DNA from: Bacteroidia bacterium
Lineage (GTDB): Bacteria; Bacteroidota; Bacteroidia; J057
DNA length: 64,000 nt
Assembly (NCBI GenBank): GCA_030430205.1
Contig: JAUIGE010000007.1
Span: forward strand, 124,001-188,000
Direction: 5' to 3'
The position numbers and the translations under genes are program-made. Positions 44,922 through 53,511 of this stretch are shown here, in pieces (the first letter of the stretch is position 1; each line of letters opens with the position of its first letter). The notes beneath the pieces are model-generated. The model was not told the origin of the DNA, did not search any database, and saw only the letters and a program-made list of their open reading frames with translations.

Positions 44922-45405
44922 AATTTTTTGTCAATTAGTGACAATAATTAAATTATTAACTTAATGATAATCAATTATTTATATCAAATAATTTAAAATA
45001 TATCCCCACAATCACAATAATTTTACATAAAATATTCCCTTTTTTTCATTTCAAGCCTCTAGTTAATTGAGTTTGAAACTCAATACTAAAATCAAAACCC
45101 TATCACTTAAAATTTGGGATGGCAAAATCCAGATAGCCGATACAGCCATAGCCAATTTTTGGCTTGCTGGTCTTATACAAAATCCTTCCACTCCTTGAGG
45201 GAACCCCCATACCTTATTGAGTTTCAAATGATAGGGTTTTGGGGTCAGGCCTTGCCTCACTTTGAGGCAGGCCTACCCTATCCTATTCAGCTTTTTAGAA
45301 CGAATAAAGCCTATTAATCCCAAATAGGTTGCGTTTTTTTTTACTCCATTAGTCCTGTTCTTCCAAAAAATTTGTATAAGTTGAAAGCATTCCATCACTA
45401 ACCTC
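44922..45405. repeat. Intergenic region with interleaved inverted repeats
   Basis: A 19-base palindrome, ATTGAGTTTGAAACTCAAT, lies at 45066-45084. Its right part TTTGAAACTCAATA (45072-45085) pairs with 45215-45228, and AAAACCCTATCA (45094-45105) pairs with 45229-45240. The two pairs interleave instead of nesting. No open frame is supported; the left third is very AT-rich. Confidence 0.75.
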
Positions 45406-45873
45406 ATGAACACCTCCGAATATCCCTCCTGTTTCTACCAGCTCTCTGCCATACTCACCGGCTACCCTGAGACCACCCTCCATGGGACGGGCTGCGGGGA
45501 ACAATATTTTGACAAGCTAAAGGCTGTCATGGGTGAGCCTATGCTGGGCGATTTGCTTCAAGGATTTGCCAATCTGCTTCAGGAAGCGGCAACTTGCGAT
45601 CAGCTTCCGGAAGTTCTGGTAAAAGAAAGCATGCTTCCCGATCCCCAATGGGGCCCCATCTGCAAAAACATCATCAAGATGTGGTTCATGGGCAATTGGT
45701 ATCCCATGCCTCCGGCCTGGCGCGCCAATTATGTGAATAGCCCCGAAGACCAAATGGAAATTCTTTCGAATCAAAGCTATATAGAAGGCCTGGTATGGAA
45801 AGCTCTGGGTAGCCATCCCAAATCTGCCAAACAACCTGGCTACGGCACATGGGCAAGTCCTCCTTTTTCCTAA
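45406..45873 (+). CDS. Small subunit of a GMC dehydrogenase (gluconate 2-dehydrogenase subunit 3-like)
   Basis: This 155-residue protein has no clear signal. It looks like the sorbitol/gluconate dehydrogenase small-subunit family: FYQLSAILTGYPETTL at the start, a helical middle (LLQGFANLLQEAATC) and IIKMWFMGNWYPMPPAWRAN near residue 85. It lies 26 bases before the GMC oxidoreductase gene, so the two probably form a complex. In related enzymes the small subunit helps export or fold the flavoprotein; here the lack of a twin-arginine signal suggests a cytoplasmic complex. Confidence 0.75.
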   Translation: MNTSEYPSCFYQLSAILTGYPETTLHGTGCGEQYFDKLKAVMGEPMLGDLLQGFANLLQEAATCDQLPEVLVKESMLPDPQWGPICKNIIKMWFMGNWYPMPPAWRANYVNSPEDQMEILSNQSYIEGLVWKALGSHPKSAKQPGYGTWASPPFS

Positions 45874-45899
45874 GCTTCATCACCTCAACTACACAGAAC

Positions 45900-47732
45900 A
45901 TGGATTCTACTGAACAATTTGACGTCATCATCGTGGGCGCGGGCATCACCGGTGCCATCATAGCCAAATCCCTGGTGCAAAGCTGCAAAGGCCTCAATAT
46001 TCTCATGTTGGACGCAGGCTCAGGGGATGCAAAGGATTTTCGCACCTACGAAAAATACAACGACCAATACTACAATGCGCTCGCCAAAACGCCGAATTCA
46101 CCCTATCCAGATTCGCCGATGGCGCCTTCGCCCAGCGTATTGAGCTTGCACAATATCAAAGAAGAAGGCCCCATCACCTCAGGCTATTTTGTCCAAAAAG
46201 GTCCTTTTCCCTTTTTGAGCAATTATAACCGTAATGTCGGTGGTACTACCCTCCATTGGCTGGGCACTTGCCTACGAATGTGTCCCAATGATTTCAAACT
46301 GAAATCGACCTACGGCCAAGGCGTAGACTGGCCGATGAGTTATGAAGAGCTGATGCCGTATTACCGGCAGGCAGAATTGGAGATCGGTGTATCTGCCGAG
46401 GTGGAGGAGCAAAAGATCCTGGGGATCGAGTTTGAGAAAGATTATGTCTTTCCCATGCACAAAATCCCTCAGAGTTACCTCGATCGCTATATGAGCAAGG
46501 GGCTCGAAGGCATGACGATTAGCTTTCATGGGGTAGAATATCCGATCAAGGTCATCAGCACGCCGCAAGGGCGAAACGGCATGCCCAATAAAAAATACTT
46601 CAATGAGCAGACACAAAGCTATGGCTTCACACCCGTTGGCGCAGTCGGCGCGCCTGAATTGGGCCAGCGCTGCGAAGGCAACGCCAACTGTGTGCCCATC
46701 TGCCCTGTGCAGGCCAAATACAATGCCCTCAAAACCCTTCAGGATGTCCTGAACAATCGCGACAATACTGTCCGGCTGATCAATCAGGCCCCAGTTCATG
46801 AACTGGGGATCGATCCTGACACCCAACTTATCAAGCAGGTTTTTTACAAAAAATACGCTACTTCAGCAGACGGAAAACGAAGCCTCATCAGCACACATGA
46901 GGCTCAGGGAAAGATCGTTGTCCTGGCAGCCCATGCCATCGAAAATGCCAAAATCCTACTTGCTTCCAGGGCATGTACGACGAGTGGCCAGGTGGGCAAA
47001 AATCTCATGGATCACCTAGTCATGCTAACCTGGGGGCTGTTGCCAGAGGCTATCGGTTCCTATCGGGGACCGGGTTCTACCAGCGGCATGCCGCTGACGA
47101 GGGATGGCAGTTTTCGCAGCAGACGCGCTGCTTTCAGAGTCGAGATCGGCAACTGGGGCTGGAACTGGCCAGCCAATACACCGGAGAGCACTTTACTCGA
47201 TGCCGTAGACAATTTGGGGCTGAGTGGAAAAGAGTTGATCGCGCATGTGCGCGATATCGGTAGCCGCCAATTTCGTATGGGCTGGGAATTTGAACAATTG
47301 CCGGAAGAAAGAAATCGCATCGAAATCTCCGATGACTACCGGGATGAACTCGGAAATTATCGTCCTATTATCCATTACCACATCGATCGTTATCAAAAAC
47401 TCGCCGCGAGAGCTGCACGCAGAATGTCGAAAAAAATATTCAGGAAACTGAATGTGGAGGAATTTACCTCATACAAAGAGACGGATGCGGGCTATTTTGA
47501 ATTCAGGGGGCGTGGCTATACGGTCAACGGTGCAGGACACCTGGTAGGGACCCATCGCATGGGAGAAAACGCCCAGGATGGGGTCGTCGATGTAAATCAA
47601 CGTGCTTTTGATCACCCCAATCTCTTTGTGGCTGGCTGTGGCAGCATGCGCACCATCGCTACTTCCAATCCTACGCTGACCATGGCTGCTTTAGCTTTCA
47701 AAACGGCAGAAGCCATTGCACAAGAATTTTAG
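45900..47732 (+). CDS. GMC-family FAD-dependent oxidoreductase
   Basis: This 610-residue protein starts at the ATG at 45900; an earlier in-frame ATG adds 17 residues ahead of the FAD site. The dinucleotide site is FDVIIVGAGITGAIIAKSL. A substrate-domain Cys motif, NCVPICPVQAKYNAL, lies near residue 265. The GMC C-terminal signature is present: GAGHLVGTHRMGEN, then LFVAGCGSMRTIATSNPTLT, with the catalytic His in the THRMG loop and Asn in SNPT. GMC enzymes oxidise alcohols such as sugars or sterols. The electron acceptor is unknown, and no cytochrome subunit is encoded here. Confidence 0.92.
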   Translation: MDSTEQFDVIIVGAGITGAIIAKSLVQSCKGLNILMLDAGSGDAKDFRTYEKYNDQYYNALAKTPNSPYPDSPMAPSPSVLSLHNIKEEGPITSGYFVQKGPFPFLSNYNRNVGGTTLHWLGTCLRMCPNDFKLKSTYGQGVDWPMSYEELMPYYRQAELEIGVSAEVEEQKILGIEFEKDYVFPMHKIPQSYLDRYMSKGLEGMTISFHGVEYPIKVISTPQGRNGMPNKKYFNEQTQSYGFTPVGAVGAPELGQRCEGNANCVPICPVQAKYNALKTLQDVLNNRDNTVRLINQAPVHELGIDPDTQLIKQVFYKKYATSADGKRSLISTHEAQGKIVVLAAHAIENAKILLASRACTTSGQVGKNLMDHLVMLTWGLLPEAIGSYRGPGSTSGMPLTRDGSFRSRRAAFRVEIGNWGWNWPANTPESTLLDAVDNLGLSGKELIAHVRDIGSRQFRMGWEFEQLPEERNRIEISDDYRDELGNYRPIIHYHIDRYQKLAARAARRMSKKIFRKLNVEEFTSYKETDAGYFEFRGRGYTVNGAGHLVGTHRMGENAQDGVVDVNQRAFDHPNLFVAGCGSMRTIATSNPTLTMAALAFKTAEAIAQEF

Positions 47733-47759
47733 GTATAAGCTCATTCAACTTACCTCATT

Positions 47760-48956
47760 ATGGAAGATCAGGAACAAAAATCATATCATCATCAAAGACT
47801 TGCTCCCGAAAAGTTGGACCTAGCCAAACAAGAGCAATTGCAGAAAAACAAGCTGATCAGCAAAATGCTACGGATCGGCCAGTCCGAGCGAGGCCTGGAA
47901 GACAACCGTCTTCATAAATTACATGAAAGCCTGCGCATAGCCATGGAGCTGGAACTTTCGACCATCCCTCCTTATCTCTGTGCGCTCTATTCCATCAAAG
48001 AGGGTGATCGTACTAAGACTGATTACGCAGCCAAATTCGGAGATAATGCAGAGGTGAGTTATCTCATACGCTCCGTGATGATGGAGGAAATGCTGCATTT
48101 TACCCTTGTCGGCAATATTCTGAATGCTGTTAAAGGAGAAATAAAGATCACAGATCCGAATTTTGTCCCTAGCTACCCTACCGCCTTGCCTGACAGCGCA
48201 GGCCTCTTTGAAGTGGGACTTCAAAAATTTAGCCCTGATGCCATCCGCACTTTTTTGCGGATCGAGCAGCCCACTCCGCCGGATACTCCGCCGCTTTTTG
48301 ATGGCTACCAAACCATCGGGCAGTTTTACAGCGCCATCATCGATTTGATGAAAGAGTTGGAAAAGGAAGCAGAGAAAAAGGGGACAACTATTTTCCAGGG
48401 GCACCTCTCCTTACAAATAGACGCCAATTACTATTATGGTGGGGGAGGAAAAATCATTGGGGTTCATGATCTCGAATCCGCACTTGCGGCTTTTGAGGTG
48501 ATTCTGGAACAGGGAGAAGGCTCTCAGACCAGCATTTATGATCAGGATGACAAGGATTTTGGTCAAATCCGTGATATGGCCCATTATTTCAAATTCAATG
48601 AAATCTTTGAAGGTCGTCGCTATGCAGCATGCCAAAACGACCCCAAACAGCCGCCTGATGGAGCAAGACTCCACATTCACTATGACCAGGTCTACAATAT
48701 GGCTCAAAATGCCAAAACAGCAGACTTCGTCTCGCCGGAGCTGATGGAGATGTCACATGCTTTCAACCGAAAGTACAGTGAATTGCTGTACACATTGGAA
48801 GAGGCTTTCACAGGGCAACCTGATCAGCTGATGGCTGCTGTAGCCATCATGTATGAGTTGCGATACCAGGCTGTCGCGCTGATGCGCAATCCTATTCCCG
48901 GCAGAAATGTAAACGCAGGGCCTACTTTTGAGTTTTTGCCCAGGGTTAAAGCCTGA
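47760..48956 (+). CDS. Ferritin-like (VioB/RebD C-terminal-type) protein
   Basis: This 398-residue protein has a ferritin-like domain: helix 1 AMELELSTIPPYLCALYSIK and helix 2 IRSVMMEEMLHFTLVGNILN, supplying Glu and ExxH-type ligands for a metal pair. A proline-rich stretch then reads PNFVPSYPTALPDSAGLF. The pattern is that of the ferritin-like family found in VioB and StaD-type iminophenylpyruvate-dimer enzymes. The C-terminal part (residues 180-398) is helical with a LMAAVAIMYELRYQAVALM segment. It is 27 bases after the GMC stop, so part of the same operon. The product is unknown. Confidence 0.85.
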   Translation: MEDQEQKSYHHQRLAPEKLDLAKQEQLQKNKLISKMLRIGQSERGLEDNRLHKLHESLRIAMELELSTIPPYLCALYSIKEGDRTKTDYAAKFGDNAEVSYLIRSVMMEEMLHFTLVGNILNAVKGEIKITDPNFVPSYPTALPDSAGLFEVGLQKFSPDAIRTFLRIEQPTPPDTPPLFDGYQTIGQFYSAIIDLMKELEKEAEKKGTTIFQGHLSLQIDANYYYGGGGKIIGVHDLESALAAFEVILEQGEGSQTSIYDQDDKDFGQIRDMAHYFKFNEIFEGRRYAACQNDPKQPPDGARLHIHYDQVYNMAQNAKTADFVSPELMEMSHAFNRKYSELLYTLEEAFTGQPDQLMAAVAIMYELRYQAVALMRNPIPGRNVNAGPTFEFLPRVKA

Positions 48957-48998
48957 TTTCCAAAGAAAACCACTAGCTTTCGGAAGTAATTTTTACCC

Positions 48999-50150
48999 AT
49001 GAAAGCTGCTGTTATATACTCCTGGCCTGCGCTGATCTTCTGGATTGGGCTGTACCAATGTGTTTTGTTGGCACCTGTTATCTGGCTAAAGGGAAAAGAC
49101 AAACCCCTCCCCTATCGCCTGTTGGCGATTTTTCTATTGATCATGGGCTTTCGCCTCCTGGTGAGCATCGTTCAGTTTGGGCCGGAACCCGACCTGAAGC
49201 AGCTTTTCAGGCTGATTGACTTTTCAGGTCTCCTGATCATTTTGTACAGTCCACTCTATTACTTCTATATCAAATCCTTTATTCAGCGAAATTTTCATTT
49301 CCAAAGGAAACATCTACTTCATTTGTTGCCGCTTCTGGTGCCGGTCTTCATCCGCATCTTTGTGGGGCTCACCAATCCTGAGGAAGGCGAGAGGTTGCGG
49401 CTCGCATTTCACCTGGGCACGCCGCCTCCCCTGGAGGTACGCATCGTAGGAGTTTTGATCCTGATGATATATGCCAGCTATTTTTTTGCAGGCTTTCGCC
49501 TGCTGCTTCGTTTTCGGAAGTTCCTCAAAAGAACTGCTTCTTTTGAAGACACCCTGCACTTCAGGTGGCTGGTTTTTATGGCTATCGTGCTGCTCATGCC
49601 CGTCCTGAGCATGATCCTTACCGCTATTTTCATTGGTAGACCGATCAATATCCCCTACCCATCCTATGGCATCAGCCTGATGGTAAGCATCGTCGCCGTC
49701 ATTGTGATGGTCAGACCAGAGATTTTTAAGGGCGTTCCTGAAAAATTAAAAGTGGAAAAGGAAGAAGAATTGGAACCCAAACGCTATGAGTCTTCTCCTT
49801 TGAGTTCTCCGCAGAAAGAAATTTTCCACCAAAAACTCCTCCGGCACATCGCATCTCAAAAGCCCTACCTCGATCAGGAGCTCACCATCTCCCAGCTTGC
49901 AGACCAACTGGATATCAACTCCAAATATCTCTCCCAGATCATCAATGAAAAGCTGGATCAAAATTTCATGGACTTCATCAATAGCCATCGTATTGAGCGC
50001 GCCAAAGAATTGCTCCTTTCCCCCGCCTTCGAATACTACACCATCCAGGCCATAGCCGAAGAAGCCGGCTTTAAGTCTAAGTCCGCTTTTTACAATGCCT
50101 TTAAAAAATTTACCGGCAAGACGCCGGTGGAGTTTAAGAGGATGAGCTAA
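48999..50150 (+). CDS. Membrane-anchored AraC-family regulator
   Basis: This 383-residue protein has about seven hydrophobic segments over residues 1-240 (for example WPALIFWIGLYQCVLLAPVI). The C-terminal 110 residues are an AraC/XylS DNA-binding domain: LTISQLADQLDINSKYLSQI, then FMDFINSHRIERAKELL and AGFKSKSAFYNAFKKFTGKT with the conserved PVEFK ending. Such regulators sense membrane or periplasmic signals and activate nearby genes. It is 42 bases after the ferritin-like gene on the same strand and upstream of a TonB receptor, so it may control either side. Confidence 0.88.
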   Translation: MKAAVIYSWPALIFWIGLYQCVLLAPVIWLKGKDKPLPYRLLAIFLLIMGFRLLVSIVQFGPEPDLKQLFRLIDFSGLLIILYSPLYYFYIKSFIQRNFHFQRKHLLHLLPLLVPVFIRIFVGLTNPEEGERLRLAFHLGTPPPLEVRIVGVLILMIYASYFFAGFRLLLRFRKFLKRTASFEDTLHFRWLVFMAIVLLMPVLSMILTAIFIGRPINIPYPSYGISLMVSIVAVIVMVRPEIFKGVPEKLKVEKEEELEPKRYESSPLSSPQKEIFHQKLLRHIASQKPYLDQELTISQLADQLDINSKYLSQIINEKLDQNFMDFINSHRIERAKELLLSPAFEYYTIQAIAEEAGFKSKSAFYNAFKKFTGKTPVEFKRMS

Positions 50151-50260
50151 TCCTCTCATTTTCTTGTCCTGATTCCTGAATATGGAGCCCAGAACCAATT
50201 CTGAGGCGTTTCTTTGCCTAAACCTTTTCATCAACCGTTTACCATCACATCAAAAAAGTC

Positions 50261-52573
50261 ATGAAAAAATTGCTGTTTGGGCTGCTGCTTAGCATAAGCA
50301 TTTCGGCCTTTGCCCAGGACAAAACGACGCTTAGCGGCTATGTGCGGGATGCCGAAACCGGAGAAGCCCTGATTGGCGCCACCATTTTTATCCCCAGCAG
50401 CGGGAAGGGCGCTTATACCAATGAATATGGATATTATTCACTCACCTTACAGGCGGGAAGCTATGAGGTGGGTTATCAATATTTGGGCTATCAGCCCAGG
50501 ACCGAAGCCATTGAATTGACCCAAAGTCTACGAAAAGACATGGAACTGGCATTAGCCGAAAACAGCCTCGACGAGGTCGTGATCAGTGGTCGCGCCAGCG
50601 ACGACAATGTGCAATCCGCCGAAATGGGTGTCACCCGCATGTCTATTTCCGAAATCAAAAAAGTGCCTGTGCTCTTTGGCGAGACAGATGTGCTGAAGAC
50701 CATGCAACTCCTGCCCGGCGTCAAACCCGCCGGAGAAGGAAGCAGCGGCTTCTATGTCCGCGGAGGCGGACAGGACCAAAACCTCATCCTGCTGGATGAA
50801 GCGCCTGTCTACAACCCCTCCCACCTGCTCGGCTTCTTCTCCGTTTTCAATGGCGACGCCATCAACAGCACCAAGCTCTACAAAGGCAATATGCCTGCGG
50901 AATATGGAGGCAGGCTCTCCTCTGCGCTGGATATACAGATGAAAGATGGCAACAGCAAAGACTATGGTCTTTCGGGCGGAATCGGCCTGATTTCCTCACG
51001 CCTGACTGCTGAAGGGCCCATCGTGGAGGACAAAGGCTCCTTTATGGTTTCAGGCAGAAGGACTTATGCAGATATGTTTCTGCTGCTTTCGTCTGATACC
51101 ACCATCAAAAACTCCACCCTCTATTTCTATGATTTCAATGCCAAGGCAAATTATAAATTAAGCGATAAGGACCAGATTTACCTTTCCGGATATTTTGGCA
51201 GAGATAAATTTGGCATTGGAAATAATTTTGGTCTGGACTGGGGGAATGCCACGGCTACCCTGCGCTGGAACCACCTTTTCAACGACAAACTCTTCCTCAA
51301 TTCTTCCCTGATCTACAGCGATTATGATTACAAAATTGAGCTGACGCCGGTGAATGCAAGCATCAGTTCGGGCATCAAAGACTGGAACCTCAAGGAAGAC
51401 TTCAGCTACTATGCAAACAATGAAAACACCCTCAAATTTGGTGTAAATGCCATTTACCACAACTTCATCCCGGGAGAAGTAAGCAATATCACCGATCCCA
51501 CAGAGGGAACTTCCATTTTGAATAAAAAGGTGGAGGAAAGATATGCTCTGGAAACAGCTGCTTATTTTTCGCATGAGTGGCATCCCTCAAAGCGATTCAA
51601 AATGAATTATGGTGTGCGTTATTCCAACTTCGCGGTCCTCGGACCGGGTAGCTTTTATGACTATGATGCCGCAGGCAATGTGACCGACAGCGCCACCTAC
51701 GCCAGCAATGAGCTGGTGACCCAATATGGCGGCCTGGAGCCGCGCATCACGGCCAGCTATGTGCTGAACCCCGAGCAATCCATCAAGGCATCTTATGCCC
51801 GCAATCGCCAATACGTCCACCTGCTATCCAATAGCACCGCCACCACGCCTACCGACGTCTGGATGCCTTCCACCAACAATGTGAAGCCGGAGATCGCAGA
51901 TCAGCTTTCCCTGGGCTACTTCCGCAATTTTGATGACAACAAATGGGAAAGCTCAGTGGAGGTCTATTATAAAGATTTGCAAAATCAGATTGAGTATAAA
52001 AACGGAGCTGATCTGTTTCTCAATGATAATGTGGAATCTCAGCTGGTGTATGGCAGCGGTTATTCCTATGGCCTGGAGCTTTTGTTGCAAAAAAAGACGG
52101 GGAATTTCACCGGTTGGGTATCCTATACCTGGTCAAAGACCATGCGTCAGTTTGACGAAATCAATGAAGGAAATCCCTTCCCGGCACGTCAGGATCGTAC
52201 GCACGATATCTCCCTGGTGGGCATGTATAGCCTGAACAAAAAGTGGGACTTTTCTGCCGCCTGGGTATACTATACCGGAGATGCAGTCACCTTTCCCAGC
52301 GGGAGCTATGTGGTGGATGGAAATCTTGTGCCGCTCTATTCCGAGCGAAATGGCTACCGCCTGCCAGACTACCACCGCCTGGATCTGAGCGCCACTTATT
52401 TTGGTAAAAATCCTGACTCCAACCTCAACATTTCGCTTTACAATGCCTACGGCAGAAAGAATGTCTATACCATTGACTTTCAAGCCAGTACTGACAATCC
52501 TGGCACACAGGAAGCCGTGAAGACTTACCTCTTTCAGTGGGTTCCCAGTGTGACTTATAATTTTAAATTCTGA
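50261..52573 (+). CDS. TonB-dependent receptor (carboxypeptidase-like, no STN domain)
   Basis: This 770-residue protein has a signal peptide (KKLLFGLLLSISISAFAQ). Residues 22-105 are a carboxypeptidase-like domain (TTLSGYVRDAETGEALIGAT). The plug holds VPVLFGETDVLKTMQLLPGV and GEGSSGFYVRGGGQDQNLIL, followed by a barrel ending SVTYNFKF. It has no STN domain, unlike the receptor at 29798, so it does not signal to a FecR. It is followed by a DUF4249 gene. The two receptors share plug motifs and are paralogous. The substrate is unknown. Confidence 0.92.
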   Translation: MKKLLFGLLLSISISAFAQDKTTLSGYVRDAETGEALIGATIFIPSSGKGAYTNEYGYYSLTLQAGSYEVGYQYLGYQPRTEAIELTQSLRKDMELALAENSLDEVVISGRASDDNVQSAEMGVTRMSISEIKKVPVLFGETDVLKTMQLLPGVKPAGEGSSGFYVRGGGQDQNLILLDEAPVYNPSHLLGFFSVFNGDAINSTKLYKGNMPAEYGGRLSSALDIQMKDGNSKDYGLSGGIGLISSRLTAEGPIVEDKGSFMVSGRRTYADMFLLLSSDTTIKNSTLYFYDFNAKANYKLSDKDQIYLSGYFGRDKFGIGNNFGLDWGNATATLRWNHLFNDKLFLNSSLIYSDYDYKIELTPVNASISSGIKDWNLKEDFSYYANNENTLKFGVNAIYHNFIPGEVSNITDPTEGTSILNKKVEERYALETAAYFSHEWHPSKRFKMNYGVRYSNFAVLGPGSFYDYDAAGNVTDSATYASNELVTQYGGLEPRITASYVLNPEQSIKASYARNRQYVHLLSNSTATTPTDVWMPSTNNVKPEIADQLSLGYFRNFDDNKWESSVEVYYKDLQNQIEYKNGADLFLNDNVESQLVYGSGYSYGLELLLQKKTGNFTGWVSYTWSKTMRQFDEINEGNPFPARQDRTHDISLVGMYSLNKKWDFSAAWVYYTGDAVTFPSGSYVVDGNLVPLYSERNGYRLPDYHRLDLSATYFGKNPDSNLNISLYNAYGRKNVYTIDFQASTDNPGTQEAVKTYLFQWVPSVTYNFKF

Positions 52574-52704
52574 TCAGGCACAACACACAAGGAAGCACCA
52601 TTAAAATAATCAAGTTCCCATTAACAAAGTCAAGAGATTCCTCCTCGAAGACTCGTCGGAATGACATCCTTAAGCATTGATAACAATACTATCATCAAAA
52701 AACC

Positions 52705-53511
52705 ATGAAAAATATATCATTTGTCCATTTGCTCCTTTTCTCTCTACTCTCCCTATCCCTTCTCTCTTCCTGCACGGAAGTGATCGACATTCCGCTCGAA
52801 GATGCAGACCGTAAAGTCGTAGTCCAGGCAAGCCTGTACAATGTTCCTGGCTTTAGCCAGGTGGTACTGATGCAAAGTGGCAGCTTTTATGAGCCAGGGG
52901 ACTATCCCCTGCTCAGCGATGCAGCCGTCACCATCAGTGACGAGGAGGGCAACAGCCAGTTGCTGGAAGAGACACAAGCAGGGGTGTACAGCCTTCCCAG
53001 CCTTATTGGAAAGGAAGGCATGAAGTATCAGCTGGATATCGAATACAATGGGGAAAATTTTCAGTCGGGCAGCCTGATGAAATCCGCTGTCCAAATCGAC
53101 TCTGTGAGTTTTGAAATGGGCGAGGAAGCGCCCTTCAGGGAAGCAGGCTATGTCATGCAGGTACATTTTACTAGCAAAAATCCATCAGACACCTATTTGA
53201 AATTTCGTCTCCTGGTAAATGACACCTTGATTAATCGCCTATACCTCTACGATGGCAGTTTGCCCAGAGGCGGAGCTGGTCAGTATAGTTTCCTTACAGC
53301 CTCCTTTCAAAAGGGTGATCGCATCCAGATCATCACAGAATCGCTTGATAAAGAAGCGTTTAGCTATTTTGACCAGCTCTCTGAGCTGACGGGTGATGCC
53401 TTCGGGCCGCCTTCGGCGGCCCCGGCCAATCCTAAGAGCAATCTTAGTGGAGGGGCTTTGGGCTACTTTGCCGCCGTGGCGGCGAGTTTGAAGGAAGTCG
53501 TTGTACCTTAA
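52705..53511 (+). CDS. DUF4249 lipoprotein paired with a TonB receptor
   Basis: This 268-residue protein has a lipoprotein signal (FVHLLLFSLLSLSLLSSC). The mature strand pattern (KVVVQASLYNVPGFSQVVLM, then LLSDAAVTISDEEGNSQLL) matches DUF4249. It is a shorter paralogue of the DUF4249 protein at 28876, and lies 131 bases after its TonB receptor. The TonB/DUF4249 pairing is the same as in the FecR-linked operon. Its stop overlaps the convergent DUF1207-like gene by 4 bases. Confidence 0.82.
   Translation: MKNISFVHLLLFSLLSLSLLSSCTEVIDIPLEDADRKVVVQASLYNVPGFSQVVLMQSGSFYEPGDYPLLSDAAVTISDEEGNSQLLEETQAGVYSLPSLIGKEGMKYQLDIEYNGENFQSGSLMKSAVQIDSVSFEMGEEAPFREAGYVMQVHFTSKNPSDTYLKFRLLVNDTLINRLYLYDGSLPRGGAGQYSFLTASFQKGDRIQIITESLDKEAFSYFDQLSELTGDAFGPPSAAPANPKSNLSGGALGYFAAVAASLKEVVVP

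Follow-up and report, generated by a model that had tools for sequence, protein, structure and literature searches.

We analyzed a 64,000-nucleotide stretch of a Bacteroidia bacterium genome (contig JAUIGE010000007.1, positions 124,001 to 188,000; below, the window), which carries a three-gene cassette for a small subunit, a GMC flavoenzyme, and a ferritin-like protein of family PF12902. The three proteins may well form one cytoplasmic iron-sulfur (FeS) flavoprotein dehydrogenase for a sugar-like alcohol, with a small subunit and a ferritin-like third protein. We read the cassette as a variant of the FeS-GMC dehydrogenases, in which the new parts are the ferritin-like partner, the missing leader, and the missing cytochrome. 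The genes and their immediate surroundings, in window coordinates, are as follows (L numbers below denote loci and G numbers genomes).

45406..45873, + strand: small subunit, 155 amino acids (aa); fold kin of the small/gamma (hitchhiker) subunits of dehydrogenase complexes dependent on flavin adenine dinucleotide (FAD); no twin-arginine translocation (Tat) leader.
45900..47732, + strand: GMC flavoenzyme, 610 aa; identified by Pfam and by its nearest solved chains, FAD glucose dehydrogenase and fructose dehydrogenase.
47760..48956, + strand: PF12902 ferritin-like protein, 398 aa; identified by Pfam and a structural model, with six invariant Glu/His residues as candidate metal ligands.
48999..50150, + strand: membrane AraC-type regulator, 383 aa; a neighbor that in relatives partners the downstream TonB receptor and probably lies outside the module.
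44922..45405, no strand: intergenic stretch of 484 bases 5' of the cassette, with inverted repeats.

Successive genes from the small subunit to the AraC gene are separated by 26, 27, and 42 bases; if the GMC gene started at 45849 instead, it would run into that of the small subunit. Pfam matched the GMC protein to GMC_oxred_C (1.9e-19) and GMC_oxred_N (4.6e-07), the ferritin-like protein to Ferritin-like PF12902 (3.2e-59), and the AraC protein to HTH_18 (1.2e-18). A plain hydropathy scan gave six membrane segments in the AraC protein and none in the small subunit or the ferritin-like protein; the one segment in the GMC protein, residues 7 to 25, overlaps its Pfam FAD-binding stretch at 8 to 41. 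An earlier note on this DNA had described a tightly packed dehydrogenase small subunit, GMC, and ferritin-like gene followed by a membrane AraC regulator, and the gene places, the two short gaps within the cassette, the HTH_18 match, and the six hydropathy segments bear this out.

We assign the GMC protein with good confidence to the FeS-flavoprotein dehydrogenase type. Its best matches among solved chains were FAD-dependent glucose dehydrogenases (FAD-GDH; 8hdd, 2.5e-71; 6a2u, 2.6e-71), and solved chains of fructose dehydrogenase (FDH) matched at 4.5e-57 to 7.3e-56. Cys258, Cys264, Cys268, His119, His547, and Asn590 are invariant in all 28 aligned GMC rows, the window included, and the three cysteines follow the cluster pattern C-x5-C-x3-C. 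The FAD-GDH of Burkholderia cepacia (BcGDH) binds its 3Fe-4S cluster through Cys212, Cys218, and Cys222, with spacing equal to that in the window protein; His476 and Asn519 are its likely catalytic pair, and His105 may bind FAD covalently (PMC6719666). By homology, Cys258/264/268 of the window protein are predicted 3Fe-4S ligands, His547 and Asn590 the putative catalytic pair, and His119 the putative FAD attachment residue. These cluster cysteines, the His/Asn pair, and the FAD histidine are common to the window protein, BcGDH (6a2u/8hdd), and the FDH of Gluconobacter japonicus (7w2j, 8jej), although the window GMC protein, at 610 aa, is longer than the 539 to 545 aa of the solved chains. A search for further copies found that the window's genome holds one GMC copy of this kind.

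The 155-aa protein has no Pfam or NCBIfam match at E values up to 1, and its assignment comes from its fold and its relatives. Three of the six members of its alignment match PF12318 FAD-SLDH (best 3.5e-4), though the window protein itself does not. Its model has a mean predicted local distance difference test score (pLDDT) of 82.6, with residues 137 to 155 below 50. Compared with 37 chains, the model reached Z scores of at least 2 for four, all of them FDH or FAD-GDH small subunits: 10.2 to 10.5 for those of FDH (8jej_B, Z 10.5 over 117 residues, root-mean-square deviation [rmsd] 3.9) and 9.3 for that of FAD-GDH (6a2u_A, 97 residues, rmsd 2.9). With Foldseek alone, three FDH/FAD-GDH small-subunit chains again ranked first, at E values of 0.04 to 0.08. 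The name of dehydrogenase small subunit, which the earlier note had given this protein, is therefore right. Like BcGDH and FDH, the window encodes a dedicated small subunit of this fold beside the GMC gene.

The window form differs from these periplasmic enzymes in having no Tat leader on the small subunit. The structural alignment begins only at chain residues 47 to 52 of the FDH and FAD-GDH small subunits, and the first conserved motif starts at residues 16 to 26 in 24 of 25 small-subunit rows and at residue 50 in L071. No Tat leader was found in these 25 rows; twin arginines occur within the first 60 residues in a single one (L004, at residue 39, behind the conserved motif). The structure-based alignments comprised 17 of the 25 small-subunit rows and, for the ferritin-like protein, 19 of 26 rows plus L067. 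PMC6719666 ascribes to the BcGDH small subunit a hitchhiker role in Tat export and, as a further possibility, protection of the cluster; since the window form has no Tat leader, only the cluster-protecting role can apply to it. The earlier note had placed the system in the cytoplasm for want of signal peptides, and the missing leaders, as far as they can tell, agree.

The second departure from the known enzymes is the third gene. The BcGDH cluster hands electrons to a subunit with three hemes c (PMC6719666), and FDH likewise has a multiheme cytochrome c subunit, whereas the window encodes none nearby and has the PF12902 protein as third gene: we searched 31 stretches, among them the full 64 kb of the window but not the rest of the genome, and none had an open reading frame of at least 80 aa with at least two CxxCH motifs. 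The ferritin-like model (mean pLDDT 85.9) fits CC_0557 of Caulobacter (3hl1) with Z 27.3 over 266 residues and rmsd 2.9; the two share a ferritin-like core, with 28% identity over the aligned part. The next-best fits, Dps and bacterioferritin chains, reached about Z 12, and the comparison tool cautions that helical bundles commonly give Z below about 13. Glu65, Glu110, His113, Glu169, Glu253, and His275 are invariant in all 26 ferritin-like rows and are candidate metal ligands. We tentatively suggest that this protein is the electron acceptor of the dehydrogenase.

The earlier note had called this protein VioB-type and had looked to pigment chemistry, which would make the cassette a small pigment-type or amine-oxidizing pathway with imine coupling by the ferritin-like protein and an AraC regulator of its own. 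VioB, RebD, and StaD, the iminophenyl-pyruvate dimer synthases, do have the PF12902 domain in common with the window protein, and the TIGR04492 VioB model gives a weak match of 39.5 bits that covers positions 605 to 840 of 1003. The label therefore holds for the domain but not for VioB as a whole, the cutoff being 1250 bits and the VioB N-terminal part being absent. VioB partners an amino-acid oxidase, whose product it is said to work on; the window protein is paired with a GMC protein of the 3Fe-4S sugar-dehydrogenase type. Given the partial match, this different partner, and an AraC gene that pairs with a TonB receptor in relatives, we consider imine coupling very improbable.

A broader form of the comparison with VioB is that the ferritin-like protein acts on the GMC product, a keto-sugar or other ketone whose ring it would cleave or which it would couple or oxygenate, and that the GMC pair only supplies the substrate. 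The six invariant Glu/His residues are also kept in three PF12902 proteins elsewhere, namely, one with a long N-terminal part (L036), one beside LodA (L037), and one beside an MbnB-type enzyme (L022), so a shared chemistry is possible, and PF12902 genes adjoin LodA-like oxidases in bacteria and also the fungal lodA gene (PMC4417212). However, the window protein has no match to the N-terminal part of the VioB model, and the partners of PF12902 proteins are too different in chemistry to predict one type of product. This explanation appears doubtful.

In the dehydrogenase that we favor, the GMC protein would use its FAD to oxidize a hydroxyl group on a substrate resembling a sugar or cyclitol, and electrons would pass from FAD to a 3Fe-4S cluster at the GMC surface. 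The small subunit would be a dedicated folding or stabilizing partner, as in FAD-glucose and fructose dehydrogenase, and because it has no Tat leader, the enzyme would stay in the cytoplasm. The ferritin-like protein would occupy the place of the multiheme cytochrome c, most likely as a di-metal (probably iron) protein that takes electrons and passes them to O2. The fullest version, still more tentative than the acceptor role by itself, is a heme-free cytoplasmic sugar/cyclitol oxidase in which the PF12902 protein replaces cytochrome c, draws electrons from the 3Fe-4S cluster, and either reduces O2 or uses them to oxygenate the product, encoded by a module that moved between phyla and onto rhizobial plasmids as well. 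FeS-GMC dehydrogenases attract interest for glucose sensors that work by direct electron transfer. Those named in PMC6719666 work with a heme c subunit; if confirmed, a soluble natural enzyme partnered by a ferritin-like protein would offer another exit for electrons. It would also assign a role to a PF12902 subfamily that has none known to us and would point to an unrecognized way in which rhizobia and cyanobacteria oxidize sugars or inositol.

Conservation of the cassette supports the view that the three proteins work together. A neighborhood search for the three-gene set, as the earlier note had proposed, revealed a conserved module in two gene orders, with the three genes linked across Bacteroidota, Cyanobacteriota, Actinomycetota, and Pseudomonadota; linkage kept in four phyla is more than chance. 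The note's view of an oxidation cassette that is not a standard catabolic set gains support. When the ferritin-like protein was used as the query against genome contigs, 22 loci were returned, and all three genes lay side by side in six (Xenococcus, an Alcanivoracaceae metagenome-assembled genome [MAG], Aureisphaera, two Mucilaginibacter, and Nocardia abscessus). A small-subunit profile built from six loci with the trio (model A1), whose matches are thus biased toward members of the trio, matched 4 of 395 genomes in the window's phylum, 6 of 244 in that of Xenococcus, 3 of 346 in that of Nocardia, and 6 of 349 in that of the Alcanivoracaceae MAG. These are 19 genomes with the small subunit, four of which are seeds of the model, and 13 of the 15 non-seed genomes have the full trio together. 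We found no paper on the three-gene set in the open literature, most subscription papers lying outside that search.

The same linkage bears on another role for the ferritin-like protein, which might remove the hydrogen peroxide that arises when electrons leak from the reduced GMC protein to O2, as a catalase- or peroxidase-like guard. A ferritin-type bundle would suit this task, RebD has a catalase side activity, and Dyp-type peroxidase genes are present in five clusters of the second gene order (L064 to L067 and L077) and in the Nocardia stretch, but a general peroxide guard would not need tight linkage to one small-subunit/GMC subfamily, and the solved 3Fe-4S relatives are dehydrogenases. 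We regard this role as unlikely.

The order found in the window (small subunit, GMC, ferritin-like) occurs there and in ten other loci. In a sister form, the order is GMC, ferritin-like, small subunit; it was found in 17 loci, among them L083, which has no GMC match. The sister cassette, from rhizobia, cyanobacteria, Pseudoalteromonas, and Persicobacter, encodes the same three proteins, and its ferritin-like protein is 38 to 44% identical to that of the window. It differs from the window cassette in gene order and in its neighbors (iolE, a sugar epimerase, and a glucosidase), which the window does not have. An IolE relative stands beside the sister form in 14 of the 17 loci. The two IolE relatives that we tested exceeded the myo-inosose-2 dehydratase cutoff (305.1 and 307.5 against 290 bits); the window's genome has three IolE matches, none over the cutoff. 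The neighboring IolE gives a hint of a sugar or cyclitol substrate for the GMC protein.

Further genes recur around the sister cassette. A second protein of the xylose-isomerase type bears a weak resemblance to keto-sugar epimerases; the glucosidase genes tested are of GH15 (PF00723), GH63 (PF03200), and debranching (PF06202) types; and a metallo-hydrolase and a thiamine-diphosphate enzyme recur as well. The IolE relative was seen in L064 to L069, L072, L073, L076 to L079, L081, and L082, most of which also have the second xylose-isomerase-type protein and a glucosidase gene. Several cyanobacterial sister clusters contain a galactose-oxidase-like protein, a Dyp peroxidase, and a pentapeptide protein in addition. 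Together, the clusters around the sister cassette look like an undescribed sugar or inositol route.

Several observations weigh against a single dehydrogenase with the ferritin-like protein as its acceptor. Small subunit and GMC are present without an adjoining ferritin-like gene in L074 and L075, and on a plasmid of Streptomyces sp. NBC_01001 the ferritin-like gene is not nearby; there, the pair is followed by a 289-aa protein that matches neither Pfam nor the ferritin-like model. The ferritin-like gene is thus not always needed. The IolE link is confined to the sister form (0 of 11 window-order loci), although the stretches compared ranged from 6.4 to 25 kb (20 kb for the window in this count) and absence is weak evidence in the short ones. 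No fusion of the ferritin-like with the GMC protein was seen. For the small subunit, the best hit by Foldseek alone had an E value of 0.041, so none fell below 0.001. In the ferritin-like protein, Gln188 on the next helix varies among the rows (Q, E, L, D, or G); a classical di-iron site can therefore not be taken for granted, and the site may differ from that of classical ferritins. Seven actinobacterial relatives of the ferritin-like protein (L007 to L013, 37 to 42% identity) lack both the small subunit and this GMC protein in their stretches.

The wider PF12902 family is also mostly found apart from GMC genes. A search of 395 genomes from the window's phylum and 219 from that of the Alcanivoracaceae MAG gave 17 and 13 places, respectively (two rows of the second list being one gene); these 30 include the below-cutoff L111, L112, and L127 and the seeds' own places (the window and L118). 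At four of the 17, the window included, and four of the 13, a GMC match is found no farther than about 1.5 kb away (one of these eight is L119, described below), and PF12902 stands apart from GMC at the other 22 of the 30. Neighbors at other places are relatives of a protein with a long N-terminal part, of LodA, or of a precursor-like protein and an MbnB-type enzyme. The earlier note had asked whether the ferritin-like gene is mostly apart from GMC genes in other genomes: for the family as a whole it is (8 of 30 places beside GMC), while the subfamily with the small subunit is linked, as the 13 of 15 non-seed genomes show. We accordingly rejected the idea that the ferritin-like gene always accompanies GMC, given these 8 of 30 places and the 6 of 22 contig-scan loci with the full trio.

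A tree built from 28 GMC proteins sets the sister form on one side of a branch with support of 100/100. Four loci were omitted: L066 (5' part outside the reading frame), L075 (unclear frame), L076 (two frames), and L083. The window-order loci are not one group and require two changes, because the long branches L035 and L074 join; these are the two longest in the tree, and their placement is unsure. The window GMC protein clusters at 100/100 with those of the cyanobacterium Xenococcus, the Alcanivoracaceae MAG, and Aureisphaera. Because this group spans three phyla, the cassette has probably been transferred between lineages.

Among 72,556 plasmid records, the ferritin-like protein matched 168 and the small subunit 102, mostly Rhizobium and Sinorhizobium among the matches listed. 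The plasmid loci examined were eight of 80 listed matches, picked by hand for spread of hosts, and a ninth from another search. A scan of viral contigs found no relative. On two rhizobial plasmids, a second small-subunit/GMC pair lies directly upstream of the sister cassette (L081, 6569 to 8810; L082, 5658 to 7903); in L081, the GMC gene of this extra pair is annotated as two pieces.

The AraC gene appears to have a different partner. Downstream of it in the window lies a TonB receptor with a CarbopepD_reg_2 domain (Pfam), a gene content that suggests a Bacteroidota genome, and in five of seven other family loci (L089 to L095), an AraC relative adjoins a relative of this receptor; in L091, only the first 35 residues lie within the stretch. 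In the two longer stretches with this pair, those of G403, from the window's genus, and G405, from the same family, the AraC gene, the TonB receptor, and the next downstream gene are consecutive, and the cassette is absent from the stretch. The window has the same unit at 48999 to 53511. Since the pair stands without the cassette in relatives, the cassette was most likely inserted in front of a preexisting AraC-TonB pair, to judge from synteny. The earlier note had credited the cassette with its own regulator, which this arrangement does not support; on synteny grounds we consider that role less likely, although the AraC protein might still act on the cassette.

A promoter presumably lies within 44922 to 45405. 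This stretch contains inverted repeats at 45072-45085/45215-45228 (14 nucleotides, 100% complementarity) and 45093-45112/45222-45241 (20 nucleotides, 90%); the long-spaced repeats from 45072 to 45241 are possibly a small mobile remnant or a hairpin.

Outside the module, PF12902 genes were seen in several other settings. In L119 (92 to 2541), a GMC gene is directly followed by a PF12902 gene with no small subunit detected, a third arrangement. In L037, L120, and L122, the PF12902 gene adjoins LodA-type quinoprotein genes, as it does the fungal lodA gene (PMC4417212). In L022, L103, L104, L106, L107, L113, L114, and L123, its neighbor is related to the 229-aa precursor-like protein from L022 (in L123, the two are in one frame), and loci of the L022 type include an MbnB/TglH/ChrH-type enzyme where the stretch reaches. 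The LodA and MbnB-type labels of the query proteins were confirmed. The PF12902/precursor-like/MbnB-type loci are possibly a peptide-modifying operon with a ferritin-like member.

In G403, which represents the window's sister species, the ferritin-like profile finds only a 911-aa PF12902 protein (L036, 5956 to 8688). The N-terminal part of this protein is long and belongs to no Pfam family, and PF12902 lies at residues 594 to 797; because the protein has no NCBIfam match at 0.001, we dropped a "VioB-like" label for it. Relatives of the N-terminal part are separate genes in L007, L015, and L099. In a Catenulispora MAG (L010, 6143 to 7897), a succinate-dehydrogenase-type flavoprotein (PF00890, PF02910) is encoded just upstream of the PF12902 gene, and a close relative of this flavoprotein lies near a PF12902 gene in a second MAG, in another arrangement.

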